Below are positions 488 to 10,965 of a stretch of DNA of 12,431 nt, piece by piece. The notes under the pieces were generated by a model. It was not told the origin of the DNA and searched no databases. It worked only from the letters and a program-made list of their open reading frames with translations. The stretch is taken from contig DAHVKR010000009.1 in the NCBI GenBank assembly GCA_027320785.1, forward strand, positions 1-12,431, written 5' to 3'. Every line of letters begins with the position of its first letter. The stretch's first letter is position 1. The DNA is from Bdellovibrionales bacterium. GTDB taxonomy: Bacteria > Bdellovibrionota > Bdellovibrionia > Bdellovibrionales > Bdellovibrionaceae. The translations under genes were made by a program, and so were the position numbers.

Positions 488-531
488 CGTGGCTCCCGAG
501 ATTTAGATATAGGAGCCACGTTTGATTTTTT
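488..531 (+). terminator. Intrinsic terminator of the secreted-protein gene
   Basis: A perfect 9-bp stem (CGTGGCTCC at 488-496 pairing with GGAGCCACG at 512-520) with a 15-base loop is followed by TTTGATTTTTT (521-531). This is a classic rho-independent terminator for the plus-strand gene. The right arm lies inside the final codons of the opposing top6A gene and the loop holds that gene's stop codon. On the minus strand the same hairpin has no U-tract after it, so it should act mainly in the plus direction. Confidence 0.9.
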
Positions 532-1678
532 CCAGAATGATCTTCTCTGTTTTAATGGGATCTTTTGGATCCACTGAGAAATAACTTTGTTGTTCGCAAC
601 GAATCTTCTCCTTCAGCAACCAACGACAGATATCAGCCACTCCTTTATTCTTCTTATCTAAGAAGAAGGGATCGTTTTCTAAGGCATCCTTGGCTTTTTT
701 CAAGGCTCGGGCCTCTACCGGATCTGATTCTTTCACCTTATAAAAAGGTAAATCATAGCGTTTCACATCATCAGGAAGCACCCCCAAGAATTTCACCTCA
801 GGAGCCGAAAAGTCAGCATTACGAATCAATGAAGAGGCCGAGCCTGCCTTCAAGGTTCTAAAAATATTCTGCATGGTGTAGGCATCCAAATCTCCGAAGA
901 AGTACATAGGAACAGCTAGCTCTTCTTGAATTAATCGACACCATCCCCGTACCGCATTGGAAGGAACCCCTCCTGCTCCCATCAAAATACAATTATTTCG
1001 ACGAGTAAATCCCATGGTGACCAGGGTGTTGGCTGTTGATTCAGATTCCACAATGAGACAAAAATCAATTTTCTTCTTAGCTTTCAGCTTCAAAGCTTGA
1101 GGTTTATTCTTCGGCATAAAGGGAGCTGTTCCCAATGTGGAAAGATCAACAGTCGCTTTTTCACCACCAGGCAAAGTTTCTGTCACAACTAGCTGCTGGG
1201 AATATGTCTGTCCGCCCTTATCATTGGCGAAACAGTTGAGTTCTTCCCGGTAAACACGAAGCATATCGCAAACAAAATCGATAATAGAGTCCGATTCGTT
1301 TTGATCTTCAAAATCCAAAGGCTTATAGCGAGAATCACCCTTAATAAGACCCTTACAGATATAGTAAAGCTCCCTTTTTGAGTTCACCGCACCGATTTCG
1401 AGATTGCGCAGTAGAATTTCTAGAATAAAAACAACCCGCGCCAGCTTTTGTACCGATGAAACGTTGAGCTCTGTACGCACGACCTTATCACCCGGGGTCA
1501 AGTAGCCCACCTTCGGATTATAAAAAGAGTTATCTAAAGTCGTTTTCACTGCTTCCAAATAAGGACGTTTGGAGTTTTCCAAATCTTTCAACATTCTCTC
1601 CGCTAAGTTTTTAGCTTCCTTTGGAATGTTGATTTTGAGATCACGAACTTTTAAAAGTCCACCCGTATGCTGTGCCAT
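503..1678 (-). CDS. top6A: DNA topoisomerase VI subunit A (Spo11-like)
   Basis: This is the DNA-cleaving subunit of a type IIB topoisomerase, 391 residues from the chosen start, a normal length for the family. The 5Y-CAP domain carries the signature RELYYIC; by alignment from memory with archaeal Top6A and Spo11, the second Tyr (residue 106) is the catalytic one that attaches to the DNA 5' end. The Toprim domain follows, with Mg-binding residues Glu211 (IVESES) and Asp263/Asp265 (GDLDAYT), and the family-typical ILMGAGGVPSNAVR segment between them. The start is taken as ATG at 1678, because AAGG lies seven bases before it; a GTG two codons upstream (1684) lies only one base after that site. 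It begins 30 bases after top6B ends and is surely cotranscribed with it. Its 3' end encodes one arm of the opposing gene's terminator. Identification is firm; which topological task it does in a cell that presumably also has gyrase is unknown. Confidence 0.95.
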   Translation of the reverse strand: MAQHTGGLLKVRDLKINIPKEAKNLAERMLKDLENSKRPYLEAVKTTLDNSFYNPKVGYLTPGDKVVRTELNVSSVQKLARVVFILEILLRNLEIGAVNSKRELYYICKGLIKGDSRYKPLDFEDQNESDSIIDFVCDMLRVYREELNCFANDKGGQTYSQQLVVTETLPGGEKATVDLSTLGTAPFMPKNKPQALKLKAKKKIDFCLIVESESTANTLVTMGFTRRNNCILMGAGGVPSNAVRGWCRLIQEELAVPMYFFGDLDAYTMQNIFRTLKAGSASSLIRNADFSAPEVKFLGVLPDDVKRYDLPFYKVKESDPVEARALKKAKDALENDPFFLDKKNKGVADICRWLLKEKIRCEQQSYFSVDPKDPIKTEKIILEKIKRGSYI

Positions 1679-1708
1679 ATTCACACCTTATTCAAATAGG
1701 ATTCAAAA

Positions 1709-3508
1709 TTACTTTTTTGCTCGAGTTTCAGCTGAGCGTTTCTTTTTTTTCAGGCTAGCAGGAGGAGCTGCTTTCCCCGTTCCTTGAGGAGGGGGAGCCT
1801 TTTTCGTTGTACTTTGAGTTGGAATCTCATCAACGCTTGAGGTGTCCTCCTCTTCCCCTTCACTACCATCTTCTCCCATAATTTTTCTCTGCTTAGCTCG
1901 CATGGCTGATAGTTTTTGAGTGGCTTCTTCAAGTTCGCTTATAGCCGCCTTCGAGTCCCGACCCAAAATCTTATTCAATCCCTCTTCTGCTTTTTTCTTA
2001 CGGGCCTCACTGGCTCCGACAATAGTTGCTAATTTCTCGACAAGAATAGGACCGAACTGCTCGATATGAGCTAGTTTTCTTTCTAAATCAGCTTCTTTAT
2101 TCTCTTTTTTAATGTGTCGAGAAAGTTTTTGCCCAGCCTGAATAAGTGCCAAACGAATTTCAGCCACTAATTCTTCAGAAGCATCAATAGTTTCCTTAGA
2201 GGCATTTTTAAACTTAATAAAAGGAGAAACCATAGAGACGGCAAAAACATAAGGACCTAATGGAAGAGAGTTCTTGGGTTGTTGCAAGCCGTAGGACTTC
2301 CAATTGACCGACTCAATGGCCCAAGTAATGGCACATCCTGATTTATCAAACTGCAAAGGAACTCGATTCGCAAATCGAAGCAACTGCACAGGGCTTTCAG
2401 CCTCTGTGTTACGGTTTTTAAAACGAGCCAAGGCCACTTCTACAACAACTGGTTTAAAGTCACAAATACGTGGTTTTCGAGTCACGACCGAGAAAAAGTC
2501 GACTTCACCTAAACGCCCAATAGACTTCGACAAGGCTTCCTCTCCCACTGTCAAAACAGATCGAGTTGAAGGTGCCATCAGCTCTGTATTCTGAACAGCA
2601 GAAAAAACCTTCTTAAAATCCTCTTGGCTAATACTTGTAATGGGTTTTTCCAAAAGGTTTTTGGGAAGTCCATTTTTAACAAATTGATTAATCGAGTCTT
2701 CACTTATTCGTGAAAACCCGGTTCGCAAAAATTTTCGAAGAGTGACCTTTCCAAATAAAGTGGCATGAGTAATAAACTCACCCAATTTAAAGGTATGAGG
2801 ATGAGGTAACGTCGAATCCGGAACCTGTGGAACTACCGTCGAAACTCGCTCCACCGTAACCTTTTCATTGTCTCCTAATTTATAGGAAACGGAAACATGG
2901 GGATTCAGAAGAATCGTCCCCTCCATATAGGTCACTAAACCACCATCGCCATTCAACTGAATGCGACCGTCCATCACAAACTCGACACGTACGCCATGGG
3001 GTTTATTCCAATCGATGGTTTCACGATTTTTAAGAGCTCCAATGTTGGATTTAATATCCACATCCACTTGAGCCCTCACCGCCTTGCGCATATTTTTTGT
3101 TTTGGAAGTAACCAAGACACCTTTGGCATTGGTCATCTGCGCCCATGTTGTCGCGGCACTAATTCCAATCCCTTGCTGTCCTCGAGAACATTTCCCTCGA
3201 CCAAATTTGGAAGAGGCCAAATACTCACCATAAACTTTTGCTAAATCTTTTTCTTCAATCCCAGGTCCATTATCTTCGACAATCACCTTTACCAAATCTG
3301 TGTTTCGAGACGATCCTGTCCCCACCTTTTTGATCTCAACATAGAGATCCGGTAGAATATCAGCCTCTTCACAGGCATCCAATGAGTTATCGACGGCCTC
3401 TTTGAGGGTGGTTAAAACAGCTTTTGTGGGCGAAGAAAATCCCACTTGCTGAAGATTCTTGGCAAAATACTCTGCTGTACTACTTTTTGTGATTTCATTA
3501 CGAGCCAT
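1709..3508 (-). CDS. top6B: DNA topoisomerase VI subunit B (GHKL ATPase)
   Basis: This is the ATP-binding, strand-gating subunit of topoisomerase VI (599 residues). The GHKL fold is complete: N-box KEAVDNSLDA (Glu37, Asn41), G1 VEDNGPGI (Asp79) and G2 SRGQQGIGIS (residues 108-117). After it come an H2TH-like region (about 256-300) and a transducer domain (about 310-470) with the family segments ANRVPLQFD, WKSYGL and SKETID; a conserved lysine in this last region is the likely ATP-sensing residue. A predicted helical segment (about 470-540) leads to a tail unlike typical archaeal forms: an acidic stretch (about 546-560), then a Lys/Pro/Ala-rich basic end, probably disordered. No Shine-Dalgarno sequence is visible before the ATG. 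The gene lies 89 bases downstream of an HNH gene on the same strand and immediately upstream of top6A, with which it should form an A2B2 complex. Confidence 0.95.
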   Translation of the reverse strand: MARNEITKSSTAEYFAKNLQQVGFSSPTKAVLTTLKEAVDNSLDACEEADILPDLYVEIKKVGTGSSRNTDLVKVIVEDNGPGIEEKDLAKVYGEYLASSKFGRGKCSRGQQGIGISAATTWAQMTNAKGVLVTSKTKNMRKAVRAQVDVDIKSNIGALKNRETIDWNKPHGVRVEFVMDGRIQLNGDGGLVTYMEGTILLNPHVSVSYKLGDNEKVTVERVSTVVPQVPDSTLPHPHTFKLGEFITHATLFGKVTLRKFLRTGFSRISEDSINQFVKNGLPKNLLEKPITSISQEDFKKVFSAVQNTELMAPSTRSVLTVGEEALSKSIGRLGEVDFFSVVTRKPRICDFKPVVVEVALARFKNRNTEAESPVQLLRFANRVPLQFDKSGCAITWAIESVNWKSYGLQQPKNSLPLGPYVFAVSMVSPFIKFKNASKETIDASEELVAEIRLALIQAGQKLSRHIKKENKEADLERKLAHIEQFGPILVEKLATIVGASEARKKKAEEGLNKILGRDSKAAISELEEATQKLSAMRAKQRKIMGEDGSEGEEEDTSSVDEIPTQSTTKKAPPPQGTGKAAPPASLKKKKRSAETRAKK

Positions 3509-3597: not shown

Positions 3598-3906
3598 TCA
3601 CTTCTTTTCAGAAGATGGATCTTTTAATTCCTCTAAGGCTATCTCCGCCCGCGTCTTATAACCCTTTTTTGTATTGCACTCTTTGCAACTGGGTACGCAG
3701 TTTTTCTTATCACTTTTTCCACCACGAGCGATGGGAATCAAATGATCCATGGTGAGTTCGCTCGGCTTAAATTTTTTTTGGCAATGGTAGCAAATGCCGC
3801 GCCCCAACTGCCCCTTCCACCAGGCTGACGCCCTGAGCTCACGCGCCTTGGCTTTTTCTTTTTTTTTGTGAGCCTCCGAAGCTGGAGCAAAATAATGGTC
3901 TACCAT
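3598..3906 (-). CDS. HNH endonuclease family protein
   Basis: A 102-residue protein with a textbook HNH/zinc-ribbon core: Cys39-x2-Cys42, then Asp54-His55 (MDHLIP), Gly62-Gly63, Asn69, and Cys74-x2-Cys77-Asn78. The DH pair and the downstream Asn are the usual catalytic and metal-binding positions, and the four cysteines should hold a structural zinc. The N-terminal 30 residues are Lys/Glu/Ala-rich and helical. The start is placed at ATG 3906 because AAGGG lies about seven bases upstream; an in-frame TTG at 3945 would add 13 residues but falls within the likely promoter. The gene precedes top6B on the same strand with an 89-base gap and no clear terminator, so cotranscription is possible. Small HNH proteins of this sort occur widely as free-standing nucleases, so a link to the topoisomerase is only suggested by position. 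Confidence 0.9.
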   Translation of the reverse strand: MVDHYFAPASEAHKKKEKAKARELRASAWWKGQLGRGICYHCQKKFKPSELTMDHLIPIARGGKSDKKNCVPSCKECNTKKGYKTRAEIALEELKDPSSEKK

Positions 3907-3916
3907 ATGAGCCCTT

Positions 3917-3945
3917 GATATAAGTTTGTTCTCACTTCTTAGCAA
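3917..3945 (-). promoter_or_regulatory. Candidate promoter of the HNH gene
   Basis: Read on the minus strand there is TTGCTA (3945-3940), a 17-base spacer and TATATC (3922-3917), ten bases before the HNH start codon. The predicted transcript start would lie only a few bases before ATG. The match is by eye against the sigma-70 consensus and the region is generally AT-rich, so the call is tentative. Confidence 0.3.
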
Positions 3946-4436: not shown

Positions 4437-5591
4437 ATGTCATCATTACAAAAAACCTATAAACGCGGTGATGTGATCTACAAAGAAGGCGACAAAATCA
4501 CCCACGTGATTTTTGTCCAATCTGGATCTGTTCAGCAAACCTTGCTTCGAAATAAAAAGAAAGTGGAGCTCATGACCTGCGGAGCTAATAGCGTTTTGGG
4601 CGAGTCAGGTCTTGCCGGGGCTCCTGCTCATAATATTTCGGCTATTGCTATTCAAGAAACTAAAACCCTTGAAGTCCCACTGGATACATTCAAAACTCAA
4701 ATTGAAGCAGCTCCTCAGTTTCTTAAAATTCTGATCAAAAGTTTTGGAGAACGTTTACATAAGGCCATGCAAGAGATTCGCTCATTCAAAATGGCACAGG
4801 ACTCAACCCCCTGCCCCGATGAAAACGTACCTCAAGTTTTTGGCGCTATCTTCTTTTCCGTCCTCCACAAAGGTGTGAAACAAAAGGATGGAGTATCTTA
4901 TGAAATAGATTGGTTTGTCTTTCGCCAATACTGTCAACGCGTACTCGGGCAATCACTCAAGCGAGTTGAGAGTGCTGTAGATATTCTGGTGAAAATGCAA
5001 CTCGCTCAGTATATTATGGGTAAACCTCCCGAAGACCCTGATGGGCCTGATCAAAAAATGGGAGCGCTCTTCTTTGATATTCAGCCCATCGAGGCGTTCT
5101 TTGAGTTTTTTCAATACTATTACTACAAACCTGGAAAATCTGATCTCCTTAAAGTGGAAGATTCTGCCACGCAGATTGTTCAACTGATGTTAAAATGTGT
5201 TGAAGGTGTGGAGCCCGATCGATTTGGTACGGTCAGTATTGAATACGCCGCTTTTGCTGAAAAAATGCAAGAAGAGTTGGGAGTTAAACTTTTGGCTGAC
5301 CACTTTATTCGCCTTGAAAACAAAGGTGTTTTCAGCAAGCGTCGCACGACAGGGGATAAGGTTTATATCGACTTCGATTTACGTGAATATAAAAACATCC
5401 TCTACTCTTGGAAGTTTATCCGCGAAATCAATAAATGGAATGAGCGTGGCTTCGTCGATCTTGATGAAAAAGAAGAAGTTCGCAAAAAGAAAACAGACGG
5501 GCCCACTTGTCCTCAATGCGGAACCCCTTACCAGGCCGATCAAAAGTTTTGTGGAGAATGCGGGCAAAATCTGGTGGCTAAAGCCAGCTAG
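4437..5591 (+). CDS. Cyclic-nucleotide-binding-fold protein with C-terminal zinc ribbon
   Basis: The 384-residue product begins with a Crp-type cNMP-binding beta-roll (about residues 5-110): RGDVIYKEGD, the IFVQSGSV strand pair, LGESGLAG at the phosphate-binding cassette, and a closing helix. The arginine that normally contacts the cyclic phosphate seems to be missing (AHNISAIA where pRsAtv is usual), so it may bind another ligand or none. No standard Crp helix-turn-helix is obvious. The middle (about 130-340) holds two stretches that could be winged-helix-like (about 130-200 and 230-320). The end is a four-Cys zinc ribbon, Cys358-x2-Cys361 and Cys372-x2-Cys375. A signal peptide is absent, so it is cytoplasmic. 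GGAGG (4422-4426) lies ten bases before ATG. The flavin reductase gene follows 58 bases later but may have its own promoter. The target is unknown. Confidence 0.85.
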   Translation: MSSLQKTYKRGDVIYKEGDKITHVIFVQSGSVQQTLLRNKKKVELMTCGANSVLGESGLAGAPAHNISAIAIQETKTLEVPLDTFKTQIEAAPQFLKILIKSFGERLHKAMQEIRSFKMAQDSTPCPDENVPQVFGAIFFSVLHKGVKQKDGVSYEIDWFVFRQYCQRVLGQSLKRVESAVDILVKMQLAQYIMGKPPEDPDGPDQKMGALFFDIQPIEAFFEFFQYYYYKPGKSDLLKVEDSATQIVQLMLKCVEGVEPDRFGTVSIEYAAFAEKMQEELGVKLLADHFIRLENKGVFSKRRTTGDKVYIDFDLREYKNILYSWKFIREINKWNERGFVDLDEKEEVRKKKTDGPTCPQCGTPYQADQKFCGECGQNLVAKAS

Positions 5592-6533: not shown

Positions 6534-7358
6534 ATGAAAACACAATATATCGTATCAACCGTTTTAACAGGAGCACTCTTAATGAGCGTTGGTTGCTCAC
6601 CCAAAAGTGCGAAACTCGTATCCGCTTCACTTAAAATGACAGGTTCTGCATCTTCTGCAACTGTCGTGCAAAATGATAGTAAAGGCTTTTTAAGTCTTCT
6701 GATGGGAAAAGCTTACGCCTTGATTCCAACATCGATTCAAGACTCCACTGGTTTAAGCATCAGTCTATCAAGCGCATGGACCGTTGTAGATGAGATCGAA
6801 TTTAAATCAAGCGAAACCACAAGCGCAGAAGATAGTGAAATGGAAGTTGAGTTCCACGGCCCTTATGCGGTCGACTTACTCTCAACGGCTCCCTTGACAC
6901 TGGATACTCAAAATATAGCTGTTAAAGATATCCGCCGAATTAAAATGAAGCTGCAGGCTGCAAGCACTTTGCCCGCTGGAGCACCCGCCGGTTTATTAAA
7001 CAACAGTATCTATCTGGCTGGTACTGTCGGTGGAAACAGCTTCGTTGTTCAAATGGATGATGGAACTGAAATGCAGATCGGTGGCCCAACAGCTTTCCAA
7101 CCCGCTCAAGGTTCAGATCTCTTAGTTGAGATTCAGTTGGCTAACATCTTTAAACAGATCAACATGTCAACTGTAGCGAATGGTGAGGTTATCGATCACA
7201 CCAATCGACACACAGGAGCCAATCTGTGTAACTCAATTGATGCAAGTGCAACAGACATCTACACTTGTATCAGAAAAGGACTTGAACTCCGTGCTAACTT
7301 CGGAGTCGACCAAGACAATGATGATGCCTTGGACCACTCTGACAGCATGGTGAAATAA
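6534..7358 (+). CDS. Predicted lipoprotein with EF-hand-like C-terminal loop, paralogue 1
   Basis: The 274-residue product has a lipoprotein signal peptide ending in LMSVGC, with Cys21 as the lipidation site (Ser at -3 is less common than Leu but acceptable). After a Ser/Ala-rich linker comes a second hydrophobic patch ending in YALIP (about 52-65), then a core (about 75-215) with DEIEFK, FHGPYAVDLLS, RRIKMKL and GAPAGLLNNSIYLAGTV, all of which recur in the gene at 8267. Near the end are Cys232 and Cys245, probably a disulfide, and an EF-hand-like loop at 259-270 with Asp at positions 1, 3, 5, 9 and 12. The core faintly recalls DUF4382-type lipoproteins, but I am not sure. AAGGA (6521-6525) supports the start. 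It is the first gene of a presumed operon with a TIGR02147 regulator, separated from it by a strong hairpin. Confidence 0.85.
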   Translation: MKTQYIVSTVLTGALLMSVGCSPKSAKLVSASLKMTGSASSATVVQNDSKGFLSLLMGKAYALIPTSIQDSTGLSISLSSAWTVVDEIEFKSSETTSAEDSEMEVEFHGPYAVDLLSTAPLTLDTQNIAVKDIRRIKMKLQAASTLPAGAPAGLLNNSIYLAGTVGGNSFVVQMDDGTEMQIGGPTAFQPAQGSDLLVEIQLANIFKQINMSTVANGEVIDHTNRHTGANLCNSIDASATDIYTCIRKGLELRANFGVDQDNDDALDHSDSMVK

Positions 7359-7430: not shown

Positions 7431-8270
7431 ATGAACAAACAAGAGAAACCAAACATTTACACTTATCATGATCACATCAGCTTCTTGGTTGATTGGTTTC
7501 AGTTTCTTAAAAAAAACAGGAGTGACTTTTCAATGAGATCTCTAGCGCAAAAATCAAAGATTGCATCTGGATATTTGCCGATGGTTCTCAAAAGACAACG
7601 AGAGCTTTCCGAAAAAGCCTTTTTAAAAGTACTCCCACATCTTTCCTTAGATCCACAAGAACGTAAATTCCTCGGACTCCTCAGGCTTGTTGGCGAATCA
7701 AAAGACCCCAATGTCAGAATAGAAGCCGTCAATCAAATGTCACGTCTTCGTAAGTTTCAAGAAAAGAACAACAATGAAATTCGCGTCTATGAATATCTGA
7801 CTAAGTGGTACTATGTCGCCATCAGAGAAATGGCCGCCCTATCCGATTTTAAAATGGACCCCGAGTGGATTAAAAATAAACTAAATGGCCGCATCACAAC
7901 TGCTGAAGTAGACGAAGCTCTCGAGTTTCTAAAAGAACAGGGCTTCCTTGTACAAGATGCCAAAGGCGAGTGGACTCAACCTCAAACAAATCTCGATTGC
8001 CGTGAAGGGATTTTTAAATTGAGCTTAGGACAATTCCATAGGCAAATGTTTGAATTAGCATCCGAATCCATTGAAGATACCCCTCGAGAAAAGCGATATA
8101 TCCTCGGACATACTGTCGCTATTTCGGCACAGGATTTTGATAAGATCAAAGCTATTCTCAATGAGTCTGTCGCAAAAATTACCCAACTAGATGATCAAAA
8201 AGGAAACAAAGAAGAAGTGTACCATATTGAGATGGCCGCTTTCCCCCTCACCAAAGAAGAGAGAAAATGA
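7431..8270 (+). CDS. TIGR02147 (DUF4423) family regulator
   Basis: A 279-residue cytoplasmic protein of the TIGR02147 family, presumed transcription regulators known chiefly from Bdellovibrio-like bacteria and Fibrobacter. The N-terminal part (about residues 30-90) is helix-turn-helix-like, with the family pattern FSMRSLAQKSKIASGYLPMV followed by Leu/Glu-rich helices. The middle (about 117-190) carries the hallmark YLTKWYYVAIREMAAL, the DPEWIKNKL segment and a winged-helix-like AL-FLKEQGFLVQD-GEW block. The C-terminal part (about 195-275), with ILGHTVAIS and a beta-rich end, is likely to be a ligand or partner domain. The ribosome-binding site is weak (GAGAG shortly before ATG), behind a strong hairpin, which suggests low expression. 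Its last codons overlap the next lipoprotein gene by four bases (ATGA), so the two are translationally coupled. Targets are unknown; the flanking lipoprotein genes are the obvious guess. Confidence 0.88.
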   Translation: MNKQEKPNIYTYHDHISFLVDWFQFLKKNRSDFSMRSLAQKSKIASGYLPMVLKRQRELSEKAFLKVLPHLSLDPQERKFLGLLRLVGESKDPNVRIEAVNQMSRLRKFQEKNNNEIRVYEYLTKWYYVAIREMAALSDFKMDPEWIKNKLNGRITTAEVDEALEFLKEQGFLVQDAKGEWTQPQTNLDCREGIFKLSLGQFHRQMFELASESIEDTPREKRYILGHTVAISAQDFDKIKAILNESVAKITQLDDQKGNKEEVYHIEMAAFPLTKEERK

Positions 8271-9127
8271 GAGTGCGTATGAAAATACTAAAATCGTCCC
8301 TCATCACAATGGCCTTTTGCCTGCTGACTCTGCTCACAACCTCGTGTCAGCTGAAAGCAAATAGCACAACGACAGGAAATCCTTTCGTGACTTTCTACGC
8401 AACAGGATCCTCAGCCGCCACAACTGTCGCCAAACAAATGTGGCATGGATTATTAAGTTTATTTTTACCCACGGCCTCGGCCCTTCCCGCACCCGGAACC
8501 ATGATGGATGCCGTTGGAAATACTGTCACAGTGACAAAAATTTGGTTCACGATTGGTGAAATTGAATTTAAGTATGCCGAGCTTCCCGACGGTTCCGAAG
8601 TCGACGGCTCTGATGTTTCATTCACAGGCCCCTATACAGTCGACATGCTGAGCTCATCTCCAACTCCACTCGATGCCGGTAATATCACCATCGATCTCAT
8701 GAGACGTATCAAAGTTAAGCTAGTAAAAACAACGAGTGTCCCAGGTGGAGCCCCAGCTGGTCTTAGCAATAATAGCATTTATATGGAAGGAACTGTTAAC
8801 GGCCATGCCTTTATCTTTACCAGTCAAGATGAGGCTGTTATGGAAATCTATGGTCCTAATCTTGTCACCGCTCTTGAAAACAGCTCACTGCTTTTACAAC
8901 TCAGAACTGCTAACCTTATTAGACGTATTGACTTGTCAGCTATCACATCAAGCACAACTATTTCCGAGTCTAATAAAGTCAACGCCACAAATCCTTGTCC
9001 CAATATTAATTCAAGCGCGAGCGATCTTTACACCTGTATTCGCGGTGGATTTGAAACAGAATCAACACTGGGACGAGATGATAATGGTGACCATGAAATC
9101 GAATCGAACGAGAGTTCTTTCGATTAA
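8267..9127 (+). CDS. Predicted lipoprotein with EF-hand-like C-terminal loop, paralogue 2
   Basis: The 286-residue product is a divergent duplicate of the lipoprotein encoded at 6534. Its signal peptide ends in LLTTSC, with lipidation at Cys27 (Cys23 if translation starts at the in-frame ATG at 8279). Shared blocks in the same order are GLLSLF...ALP (about 61-74), GEIEFK, FTGPYTVDMLS, RRIKVKL and GAPAGLSNNSIYMEGTV, then NPC...YTC (Cys244 and Cys257, the same 12-residue gap) and an EF-hand loop at 271-282 (D-x-N-G-D-x-E-I-E-x2-E), a better match than in paralogue 1. The start ATG at 8267 overlaps the regulator stop, so ribosomes may reinitiate; the upstream AAGAGAG is a weak binding site. Its stop codon overlaps that of the convergent sulfatase-fold gene. 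It is probably anchored in the outer membrane. Function is unknown. Confidence 0.85.
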   Translation: MRVRMKILKSSLITMAFCLLTLLTTSCQLKANSTTTGNPFVTFYATGSSAATTVAKQMWHGLLSLFLPTASALPAPGTMMDAVGNTVTVTKIWFTIGEIEFKYAELPDGSEVDGSDVSFTGPYTVDMLSSSPTPLDAGNITIDLMRRIKVKLVKTTSVPGGAPAGLSNNSIYMEGTVNGHAFIFTSQDEAVMEIYGPNLVTALENSSLLLQLRTANLIRRIDLSAITSSTTISESNKVNATNPCPNINSSASDLYTCIRGGFETESTLGRDDNGDHEIESNESSFD

Positions 9128-10965
9128 AAATAAAGAGCATTATCCCAAAGTCCCTCTGAAAAGACTTCTTTGACGGCCTTCAAACTTTTTTCAAGTTGAG
9201 GGTCTGCGGGGACTTCTTTTTTATAATTATCAAAATCAACAAAGGTTTGCTTATTGTGCTGCTCGATCAAGACTGTCTTCCCGTCCGTTTGAAGATAGAG
9301 GCCGGGAATAAAGGCCGTAAAAGTTCGAGGTCCTGGGCGAAAAACAGAGCGAGACAATGCCACCGTTTTAACATTGGGTATTTTAAGAAAATCATAGAGA
9401 CTGGCTGGAATATCAATCTGTTGAACAAGTTCCTGTCGATCAATCTGTTCCGGCCACTTCGGAATCTGCGGATGAAAAAATAAAATCGGAATACGGTAAG
9501 CTTTAATATAATCATCGAAGTCCGTAAAAACCTGAGGCCCCGTGTGATCCGCCGAGATAATAAAAAGAGTATTGGAATACCACGGCTGCTTCTCTGCATA
9601 TTTGAAAAAATCAGCCAACACAGAATCCGTGTAAGAAATAGATCTTAAAATCTTATGGGGCCCTTTAATATGATCATACTGAGCTTCACTCGGTGGAAGC
9701 TTGTAAGGTTGATGAGAACTCAATGTAAATAAGGCTGAAAAGAAGGGTTGTTTTTTTTGCGTCAGCTGATCCGCAAAATATTTCAAATAAGGTCGATCGT
9801 AGATGCCCCAAACCCCATCACTATCTTCAGGACGAGGGTACTCATTTTTTCCAAAATAATGTCGAATACCGGCCTTCGCAGTAAAGGCATCAAAGTGCAT
9901 GGTTCCATTATCAGCGCCATGATAAAAGCTCGTGTCATATCCTTGATTGTCGAGCACTTCCCCCAATCCCACAAACTGATTGGTTGAAAACTCTGAAGTG
10001 ATAAAGGGCTCTTCCATCAAAGCCGGGATGCCCGACATAATGGCCGCAACCCCCTCAATGGAACGACGTCCACTGGCCATAGCCCGAGTAAACGTCAGAC
10101 TTCTTTTCATCAGACTATCTAAGAAAGGAGTATAGGAGTGATGATTTTCAGGGTTTAATCCTGTGTACTCCCAAGAAAAACTTTCTAGAATCAAAATCAC
10201 AACATTTTGCTTTTGTGTAAAATTCATCTGCGGCAAAATGGGTTGAGAATTAATTCCCCCATTGACCAACTTTAAAGCCTCATCATGCTGAGGAAAGTAT
10301 TTCACTCGTGGAAGAGTGTTTTTACCCACTGTCTTAAGCAGCATAAAGCTTGTATTCAATGACAGCTGATTCATTTGAGCTCTCTCGAAAGCATCCGCAT
10401 TCACAGGCGTGAGAGGTTTTTTCTGAAGGCCCCCACGACTTCCGATCACTAAAAGAATCACAATGACGACTTGCTCAATGACCGCCATTTTTGATTTCCA
10501 TGTAAAAGGTCGACGAGATTCTTTTTTGATAACTCGATAACTCCAGTACCAAAAAAGACCGCCCAAGAGTGCGGCTAGAATCATCCAAATGACATAACCA
10601 CTGATAATTCCCGCTGTTTTATTCTGACCCTCTTTCAAAATGTCCAAAGAAGAATAGGTCATTCGACGACCCCAAAACTTCCACATTTCCACATCAATGA
10701 CATTGACCAACCAAAGCGGTATTTGGATCAGGAAAAAAGGAATCCAGTAAAAACGGCCGATCAGCCATCCCCATAAAACCACAGGCAAAAGGGTCCAGGA
10801 TATGGAAACCATATCAAAAGGAATCCCCACCCAAAAAGCCTTCACCAGGTCCGATAGGTTCTCATGAGCAAAAAGTCTAAAATTCCACCCAAGGAATTCC
10901 ACCCTTAAACTCATGTAAAAAAGGAATAGAATGAGGGCTAAGCGCCAAAACAAGCTGAAACGCAC
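9124..10965 (-). CDS. LtaS/OpgB-like membrane phosphotransferase (alkaline-phosphatase superfamily)
   Basis: A 613-residue enzyme with about five N-terminal TM helices (roughly 5-20, 52-70, 72-92, 118-143 and 162-178) and a periplasmic sulfatase-fold domain (about 250-570), the layout of lipoteichoic acid synthase. Metal and catalytic residues are in place: Glu261 (LILESFSW), nucleophile position Ser302 (SGRRSIEG), His418 (SSHQPY) and Asp473-His474 (ISADHTGP). S. aureus LtaS has Thr as nucleophile; Ser here fits some Gram-negative relatives. It probably moves a phosphoglycerol or phosphoethanolamine head group from a phospholipid to a periplasmic glycan or lipid, but the acceptor cannot be read from sequence. 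The start is GTG at 10965, seven bases after AGGG; an out-of-frame ATG overlaps it by one base. Its stop overlaps the convergent lipoprotein gene's stop, and 54 bases separate it from divergent bolA. Confidence 0.9.
   Translation of the reverse strand: MRFSLFWRLALILFLFYMSLRVEFLGWNFRLFAHENLSDLVKAFWVGIPFDMVSISWTLLPVVLWGWLIGRFYWIPFFLIQIPLWLVNVIDVEMWKFWGRRMTYSSLDILKEGQNKTAGIISGYVIWMILAALLGGLFWYWSYRVIKKESRRPFTWKSKMAVIEQVVIVILLVIGSRGGLQKKPLTPVNADAFERAQMNQLSLNTSFMLLKTVGKNTLPRVKYFPQHDEALKLVNGGINSQPILPQMNFTQKQNVVILILESFSWEYTGLNPENHHSYTPFLDSLMKRSLTFTRAMASGRRSIEGVAAIMSGIPALMEEPFITSEFSTNQFVGLGEVLDNQGYDTSFYHGADNGTMHFDAFTAKAGIRHYFGKNEYPRPEDSDGVWGIYDRPYLKYFADQLTQKKQPFFSALFTLSSHQPYKLPPSEAQYDHIKGPHKILRSISYTDSVLADFFKYAEKQPWYSNTLFIISADHTGPQVFTDFDDYIKAYRIPILFFHPQIPKWPEQIDRQELVQQIDIPASLYDFLKIPNVKTVALSRSVFRPGPRTFTAFIPGLYLQTDGKTVLIEQHNKQTFVDFDNYKKEVPADPQLEKSLKAVKEVFSEGLWDNALYF

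Follow-up and report, generated by a model that had tools for sequence, protein, structure and literature searches.

Topoisomerase VI is an enzyme familiar chiefly from archaea and plants, and topoisomerase IV is the chromosome-unlinking enzyme in many other bacteria. What, then, does an intact topoisomerase VI gene pair do in a member of the Bdellovibrionales? We address this question for the pair in a window of 12,431 nucleotides (the whole stretch of DNA that was analysed). Bacterial topoisomerase VI has been called sporadic, and PMC11302465, which calls it so, leaves its role to further work. The enzyme of Bdellovibrio bacteriovorus has already been published (PMC11318664, PMC11302465); the pair is not new for Bdellovibrio, and what the window holds is a lineage-specific version of an established family. 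In this report, we describe the pair as a type IIB A2B2 topoisomerase VI which, in the bacterial class of the window (Bdellovibrio included), most likely is a dedicated decatenase that unlinks replicated chromosomes, a reading that we regard as probable.

The gene pair and its products

The pair lies on the minus strand, with top6B (1709..3508; subunit B, 599 aa, GHKL ATPase plus transducer) separated from top6A (503..1678; subunit A, 391 aa) by a 30-nt spacer (1679..1708). Both open reading frames, 503-1684(-) and 1709-3508(-), are complete and open throughout. The mechanical top6A frame begins at GTG 1684 and is 2 aa longer than from ATG 1678, the likely start, which has a ribosome-binding-like AAGG ahead of it at 1689-1686; this start gives the 391 aa of Top6A and the 30-base distance stated in an earlier, sequence-only reading of the window. 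GC content varies between 0.40 and 0.45 in 1-kb windows. A promoter scan of the window returned 5 sites (6.4 in shuffles) and a terminator scan 6 (4.7 in shuffles); Rfam and tRNA searches of it gave no match.

Top6A matches TP6A_N (PF04406) and TOP6A-Spo11_Toprim (PF21180), and Top6B matches HATPase_c_3 (PF13589), HATPase_c (PF02518) and Topo-VIb_trans (PF09239), all above gathering scores; the NCBIfam equivalogs are also passed, with 440.7 bits for NF003335 (subunit A, cut-off 424), 526.7 bits for NF003218 (subunit B, cut-off 274) and 385.7 bits for TIGR01052 (top6b, cut-off 380.7). Sequence relatives in the PDB at E<=0.001 are topoisomerase VI chains only, with four distinct sequences for A and five for B. 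Top6B keeps EAVDN (37-41), DNGPGI (79-84), SRGQQGIGIS (108-117) and WKSY (403-406), and ends in a low-complexity tail whose last residues are KKKKRSAETRAKK. In Top6A, R102, Y106, E211, D263, D265 and E362 are invariant in an alignment of 46 sequences, the window's first, and align with R102, Y106, E202, D254, D256 and E342 of Methanosarcina mazei, the roles of which are given in PMC13040014. We accordingly assign Tyr106 as the catalytic tyrosine, Arg102/Glu362 as the clasp and Glu211, Asp263 and Asp265 as the TOPRIM acids. Gene integrity and catalytic residues are direct observations; the pair, claimed by the sequence-only reading to be intact, with the catalytic Tyr, the Toprim Glu/Asp-x-Asp and full GHKL motifs, is confirmed far beyond chance.

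Of the 286 PDB matches at E<=10 to the AlphaFold model of Top6A (mean pLDDT 77.8, pTM 0.74), 10 reached E<=0.001; eight of these were Top6A chains, including the best seven, and two were Spo11 chains, ranked 8th and 10th. TM-scores by query length were just 0.38-0.48 and rmsd 13-18 A, which we put down to domain orientation in this predicted single-chain model. Spo11/topo VIB-like systems have a B partner without the full GHKL ATPase; such an identity does not fit the full GHKL motifs of Top6B or the rank of the Spo11 chains below the best seven Top6A. Topoisomerase VIII and the mini-topoisomerases, in which A and B are fused in one short polypeptide and whose kinship the sequence-only reading had named as evidence against itself, do not fit two separate, unfused, full-length genes, nor does topoisomerase IV (ParC/ParE) fit a pair for which neither PF00521 nor PF00204 was reported.

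Type II topoisomerases in the class and a probable role in decatenation

Topoisomerase VI seems to be a constant feature of the window's class. Of the 98 genomes sampled from the class, 96 carry the Topo VI-B transducer domain (PF09239); in a closer set made up of the window's own genome and 58 relatives (59 in total), top6A was matched in 57 and Topo VI-B in 58, and top6B was followed by top6A in all 73 loci with room downstream. The pair had been described as settled rather than freshly acquired, and these counts bear that out. The absence of top6A in G047 is only apparent, its contig of 3921 bp ending just past top6B. G001, a genus-mate 97% complete, is without the pair; loss there is not established, since the entire 12.4 kb window has no DNA match in that genome, which may reflect an assembly gap.

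The type IIA A-subunit domain (PF00521) occurred once in 93 of the 98 class genomes, as two complementary pieces in 2, and was not found in 3; none of the 98 yielded a second type IIA A-subunit. The B-subunit domain (PF00204) was single in 57 of the 59 genomes, the window's own included, and not found in 2. The PF00521 copy of the window's own genome is GyrA (1190.5 bits, cut-off 902) and adjoins a GyrB-like gene; because this metagenome-assembled genome is 67.8% complete, the absence of topoisomerase IV rests on the relatives. Apparent co-occurrence of topoisomerase VI with a second type IIA enzyme was traced to a single gene split into complementary parts across two contigs (G060, G056 and G239) or to overlapping pieces on a single contig (G102); an extra copy in G077 passes the gyrA cut-off (936.3 against 902) in a genome with 5% contamination, and the one in G084, a candidate exception, is a partial match in a genome 73% complete. 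With a second type IIA A-subunit in 0 of 98 genomes, gyrase and topoisomerase VI are seemingly the only two type II topoisomerases of the class. A survey of gyrA/B and parC/E had been proposed by the sequence-only reading, which noted that gyrase and topoisomerase IV usually suffice in bacteria; the topoisomerase VI pair is indeed present, but not as an extra beside both.

Other families of the phylum bear on the same point. Family f18, judged from protein names to be the predatory Bacteriovoracaceae/Halobacteriovorax (Bacteriovorax is called predatory in PMC12642874), has PF09239 in 0 of 96 genomes and at least two PF00521 matches in 84 of 96, some of which may be pieces of one gene; this favours the view that topoisomerase VI stands in for topoisomerase IV. 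In one such locus (Halobacteriovorax/Bacteriovorax, L112), the second enzyme may fill the decatenase slot of topoisomerase VI, from which it differs in being type IIA, with a 480-aa A subunit too short to include a GyrA/ParC C-terminal domain; this subunit scores 366.6 bits with PHROG 551 and at most 188.7 with NCBIfam models, the corresponding values for GyrA of the window's genome being 555.5 and 1190.5. PF09239 and a second PF00521 are both missing from families f14 (n=6), f20 (n=1) and f22 (n=2), and the rechecked genomes (4, 1 and 2, respectively) likewise have no Top6A PF21180; thus, some of the phylum's members seem to manage with only gyrase. The same lack of both was seen in 5 of 35 f17 and 2 of 14 f13 genomes; of these seven, most are fragmented assemblies and one (G223) has a PF21180 match.

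The conservation of the pair and the lack of a second A-subunit are read directly from the genomes; activity, complex formation and cell role are what we infer. By homology, two Top6B subunits would bind ATP and close their GHKL domains around a DNA crossing, one duplex would be cut by Tyr106 of the Top6A dimer, aided by metal at the TOPRIM acids, and the second duplex would pass through the cut before it is resealed; gyrase would control supercoiling while topoisomerase VI decatenates. M. mazei topoisomerase VI is a preferential decatenase (PMC8837201) and, according to unpublished data in PMC11302465, is able to complement a temperature-sensitive parE mutant of E. coli. In the literature, we found no reported activity for any enzyme of the window's lineage.

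The sequence-only reading had left open the enzyme's job in a possible predator, with chromosome unlinking during multi-copy filamentous growth as an example. If the job were special to predators, topoisomerase VI would be an accessory decatenase for the filament stage, when several chromosome copies are unlinked at once, with gyrase doing the routine work; Bdellovibrio does form multi-chromosome filaments (PMC11318664), and topoisomerase VI has been discussed for plant endoreduplication (PMC8837201). However, the absence of Topo VI-B from all 96 f18 genomes argues against a requirement linked to predation, and, gyrase itself aside, the class offers no second type IIA A-subunit for routine decatenation. 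We therefore consider this explanation unlikely.

The HNH gene upstream of top6B

A small HNH protein, likely of 102 aa from ATG 3906, is encoded 89 nt upstream of top6B (3598..3906, minus; the mechanical frame, 3598-3945, starts at TTG). Of 77 loci in which the upstream stretch was long enough, 47 have an HNH gene on the same strand as top6B and no more than 400 nt before it, and a further 20 have one 481-2609 nt upstream, making it a frequent neighbour within the order, with a putative functional link. If the two formed a module for DNA cutting or repair, in recombination or defence, strand passage would not be the function of the pair. In PADLOC, only the HNH protein drew hits, and these were weak (best E 2.9e-9); neither Top6A nor Top6B had a match, and Top6B has retained its GHKL motifs in full. 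Moreover, no HNH gene was found upstream in 10 of the 77 loci, none stands beside top6B in 11 loci of eight other families (f11, f13, f16, f21, f23, f24, f25 and f27; about 0.8-2.3 kb of upstream sequence covered), HNH and top6B lie on separate contigs in five genomes inspected by eye (G117, G122, G142, G162 and G183), and HNH is present in 3 of 4 genomes of f12, which has no topoisomerase VI. A functional module was rejected on the other-family loci and the f12 genomes, and we give this alternative very little credence.

A distinct lineage within a varied phylum

The dedicated decatenase that we propose belongs, as far as sequence can tell, to a deep topoisomerase VI lineage of its own. After the TOPRIM core, its Top6A reads DLDAYT in place of the DxDPYG of most compared enzymes, a common rather than defining pattern (M. 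mazei reads DGDPWS). Among 143 loci in which Top6A was matched, 132 read DLDAYT; of the other 11, five are truncated with the motif unread and six are of another lineage (DGDPYG in 5, DCDPYG in 1). Trees of A and B, as proposed in the sequence-only reading, agree on the same main split; because the branches leading to the archaeal sequences are very long, only this split of two bacterial types, and not the root, was used.

Archaeal topoisomerase VI (M. mazei 2q2e/9o0g, S. shibatae 2zbk and M. jannaschii 1d3y) shares the domains, catalytic Tyr, TOPRIM acids, R/E clasp, GHKL motifs and WKxY with the window's enzyme, but its A subunits are 23-32% identical over the aligned parts and read DGDPYG, DGDPWS or DADPYG, and it differs from the window's Top6B in the low-complexity tail of the latter. 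The other bacterial lineage, of the same enzyme class, comprises, among the best 120 matches listed per Top6A search of a capped candidate list, proteins named as Scalinduaceae, Planctomycetota, Acidobacteriota and Deltaproteobacteria, together with f15 and f19 of the phylum, in whose loci B and A are adjacent. Its A subunits are 29-34% identical to the window's, whereas those of f15 and f19 are 69-77% identical to four named proteins of their lineage and 53-58% to M. jannaschii. The pair of B. bacteriovorus (Bd2864, with Bd2865 probably the B subunit) is the same as ours: the proteins of strain kdesi share 78% (B) and 83% (A) identity with the window's and nothing of substance was seen to differ, although 6 kb of upstream sequence in that strain gave no match to HNH. 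That the pair is decaying or passing horizontally without an important role, as its sporadic occurrence in bacteria (PMC11302465) and the second lineage in the phylum might suggest, is highly improbable given that 55 of 57 top6A matches span at least 90% of the query, 54 of these stop-free (G057 has one internal TAA), that the catalytic residues are invariant and that A and B share their main split.

Together, these distributions incline us, if only slightly, to the view that unrelated enzymes have taken over the dedicated decatenase slot several times within one phylum. The Bdellovibrio class, along with several other families, would have a private, deep topoisomerase VI lineage, and two families a different topoisomerase VI; Bacteriovoracaceae would use a short type IIA enzyme resembling phage topoisomerases, f12 a further GyrA/ParC-type copy, and f14, f20 and f22 gyrase alone. 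Holders of topoisomerase VI and of a second type IIA enzyme scarcely overlap. Relatives in one phylum that seem to rely on topoisomerase VI, on another type IIA enzyme or on gyrase alone would make the role of bacterial topoisomerase VI testable by comparison and by swaps, and the model predicts that quinolones would meet gyrase only, not topoisomerase IV, in Bdellovibrio.

The topoisomerase VI gene pair and its neighbours

The topoisomerase VI of the window is real, intact and old, and its gene pair is the same as that of Bdellovibrio. The genes lie on the minus strand in the reading order small HNH gene (3598-3906), top6B (1709-3508, 599 aa) and top6A (503-1678, 391 aa). Family models and PDB sequence relatives agree in assigning both subunits to topoisomerase VI, and the predicted structure of the A subunit likewise places Top6A there. 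The start of top6A is most likely the ATG at 1678, preceded by AAGG at 1689-1686, and this start gives the 30-nt gap between the genes that the sequence-only reading had claimed. The window comprises all 12,431 bases of contig C427 in a genome of 1.88 Mb (427 contigs, 67.8% complete). Its nearest named relative in one scan, from which very near records were possibly left out, was 'Pseudobdellovibrionaceae bacterium isolate AF21_PE0_C1_S7_39_13' (L120), with a Top6B 82% identical.

The intact pair with its active-site residues, also claimed from the sequence alone, was borne out. Top6B keeps its ATPase motifs (GHKL boxes) and WKSY. R102, Y106, E211, D263, D265 and E362 of Top6A were invariant in 46/46 sequences of an alignment of the window with 45 of the 240 listed relatives. 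By alignment these correspond to R102, Y106, E202, D254, D256 and E342 of M. mazei, which PMC13040014 assigns to the clasp, the catalytic tyrosine and the acidic tetrad. The TOPRIM aspartates sit in DLDAYT, which was present in 132 of 143 fetched loci with a Top6A match (overlapping loci of one genome being counted more than once); the other 11 comprised five with DGDPYG and one with DCDPYG, from another lineage, and five truncated loci. Compared with DGDPYG in M. jannaschii, DADPYG in S. shibatae and DGDPWS in M. mazei, the window lineage has Ala for the Pro of DxDPYG-type motifs; as DxD is intact in DLDAYT, the metal site is expected to be retained. Measured in 77 of 80 loci, the Top6B tail past the last LGRD-like motif ran from 28 to 145 residues with a median of 83, and K and R made up at least 30% of the last 25 residues in 40 of these 77.

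The HNH gene often adjoins top6B in the order. We kept 80 of the 123 loci found, 77 of which reached 600 nt or more upstream of top6B; a same-strand HNH gene lay within 400 nt in 47 of these and at 481-2609 nt in 20, and none was found upstream in 10, some of which had barely more than 1 kb of room. No HNH gene adjoined top6B in 11 loci from other families. Wherever 600 nt or more of downstream sequence was available (73 loci), top6A followed top6B. Close HNH homologues (E<=1e-16) occurred in 154 of 290 genomes, and three of the four genomes of family f12 carried a homologue without topoisomerase VI. We treat the HNH gene as a frequent neighbour of top6B, not a proven partner. Elsewhere, the window encodes a cyclic-nucleotide-binding domain protein with a C-terminal zinc ribbon (4437-5591), a TIGR02147/DUF4423 protein flanked by two similar-looking short proteins (6534-7358, 7431-8270 and 8267-9127 in order along the window) and a sulfatase-domain protein (9124-10965) that distantly resembles lipoteichoic acid synthase and phosphoglycerol transferase. 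Both flanking proteins have signal-like starts, and the first gave a sub-threshold DUF4382 match.

Two topoisomerase VI lineages in one phylum

Another topoisomerase VI lineage is present in families f15 and f19 of the same phylum (loci L062-L067). Its A subunit is 29-33% identical to that of the window and 69-77% identical to four proteins named Scalinduaceae, Planctomycetota, Acidobacteriota and Deltaproteobacteria; identity to the M. jannaschii A subunit is 53-58% for f15/f19 and 32% for the window. Two aligned f19 B proteins (L064, L066) carry an insert in the ATPase domain. The trees of both subunits proposed in the sequence-only reading, built with bacterial and archaeal rows (31 for A, 25 for B), separated the window lineage (20 and 19 rows) from the f15/f19 type and the archaea with support of 100/100; given a very long stem and two archaeal rows longer still, we claim neither a root nor a donor. 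PMC11302465 calls the tree position of B. bacteriovorus Topo VI-B 'likely to be anomalous', and unlike that of its A subunit. Here, with more rows of the window lineage, the trees of A and B show the same main split, and the finer forks are only partly resolved.

Distribution of topoisomerase VI and type IIA enzymes

Throughout the class, gyrase appears to be paired with topoisomerase VI instead of topoisomerase IV. Among 59 genomes (our own and 58 relatives), top6A was present in 57 and PF09239, the Top6B transducer domain, in 58. In two genomes top6A was not found: the G047 contig stops just past top6B, and G001 is of the same genus and 97% complete; no match to the whole 12.4 kb of window DNA was found in G001, reflecting either a gap or a large deletion. 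Across the phylum, PF09239 occurred in 172 of 290 genomes, our own included: 96 of 98 within the class and 76 of 192 outside it. The latter include family f18, with 0 of 96, which we infer to be Bacteriovoracaceae from the names of relatives of the second type IIA protein of one member, G065. As to the two PF09239-negative class members, G291 has a Top6A TOPRIM match and in G001 none was found. One genome placed outside the class (G117, f25; locus L206) has a topoisomerase VI 83% (A) and 76% (B) identical, nested among Bdellovibrio rows in the trees, which is a question either of transfer or of classification.

We counted PF00521, the type IIA A-subunit domain, in the same 290 genomes. Within the class (n = 98) there was one match in 93, two complementary pieces in two and none in three. 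The proposed search for gyrA/B and parC/E yielded a GyrA well above cut-off in our own genome, with a GyrB-like gene adjoining it, and no second PF00521 gene in the class; of 59 genomes, 57 had a single match to PF00204, the B-subunit domain, and none was found in the other two. Outside the class, the 116 genomes without PF09239 had at least two PF00521 matches in 87, one in 28 and none in one, and the 76 with PF09239 had at least two in four, one in 70 and none in two. In a stricter subset (126 of the 192; >=90% complete, <=5% contaminated), the figures were at least two in 66 and one in nine without PF09239, and at least two in three and one in 48 with it. These are counts of genomes, not independent events, and the contrast is mostly one of one class with one family.

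G060 and G102 were rejected as holders of both enzymes, their extra PF00521 being one gene in pieces; G077 has a second gyrA-like gene, possibly contamination, and the extra match of G084 is partial. Families f14 (n = 6), f20 (n = 1) and f22 (n = 2) run counter to the pattern, having neither PF09239 nor a second PF00521, and gyrase appears to be their only type II topoisomerase; one example, G061, is 100% complete. Five of 35 f17 and two of 14 f13 genomes likewise lack both, with a match to PF21180 (Top6A TOPRIM) in G223 and none found in the other six.

Type II topoisomerases of predators in the phylum

In the second type IIA enzyme of an f18 genome (G065; L112:2-2847), the A subunit has 480 aa, which leaves no room for a GyrA/ParC C-terminal domain, and the B subunit encoded next to it has a tail rich in lysine. 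This A subunit scored 366.6 bits with PHROG 551, a phage family, and no NCBIfam model gave more than 188.7; for our own GyrA, as a control, the values were 555.5 and 1190.5. Its best PDB matches were, in order, chains labelled DNA topoisomerase 2 (eukaryotic), a topoisomerase IV A subunit and 'DNA topoisomerase medium subunit' (phage T4-type). With reserve, it may be called phage-like. Among the matches listed (120 of 1163), its relatives included Halobacteriovorax (best 95% identical) and Bacteriovorax, and most were named gyrase subunit A. In f12, three of four genomes had two PF00521 matches, and the copy examined in G059 (768 aa) scored too low for the gyrA and ParC models and passed the cut-off of a general subfamily model.

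The Figure 6 legend of PMC11302465 assigns gyrase and topoisomerase VI to B. bacteriovorus as family representative and topoisomerase IV only to Terrabacteria and Pseudomonadota groups, and our class-wide counts agree with that legend. PMC11318664 enters Bd2864 as topoisomerase VI and labels Bd0005 'Top IV' and Bd2865 'Top II'. Since single-contig relatives (for example G004, G007, G031 and G036) have their sole PF00521 gene directly after the PF00204 gene, at ~4.6-7.9 kb, Bd0005 is probably gyrA; Bd2865 is probably top6B. Among the titles and abstract openings listed for topoisomerase VI, Bdellovibrionota and Halobacteriovorax, none reported a phylum-wide enzyme exchange, DLDAYT or the HNH neighbour, which is weak evidence of absence. 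A similar class split is described for histones in PMC11390915, with 'bacterial dimers' in Bdellovibrionia and face-to-face histones in Bacteriovoracia. The useful addition is the apparent class-wide set of gyrase and topoisomerase VI, to which the other predators of the phylum appear to have a different solution.
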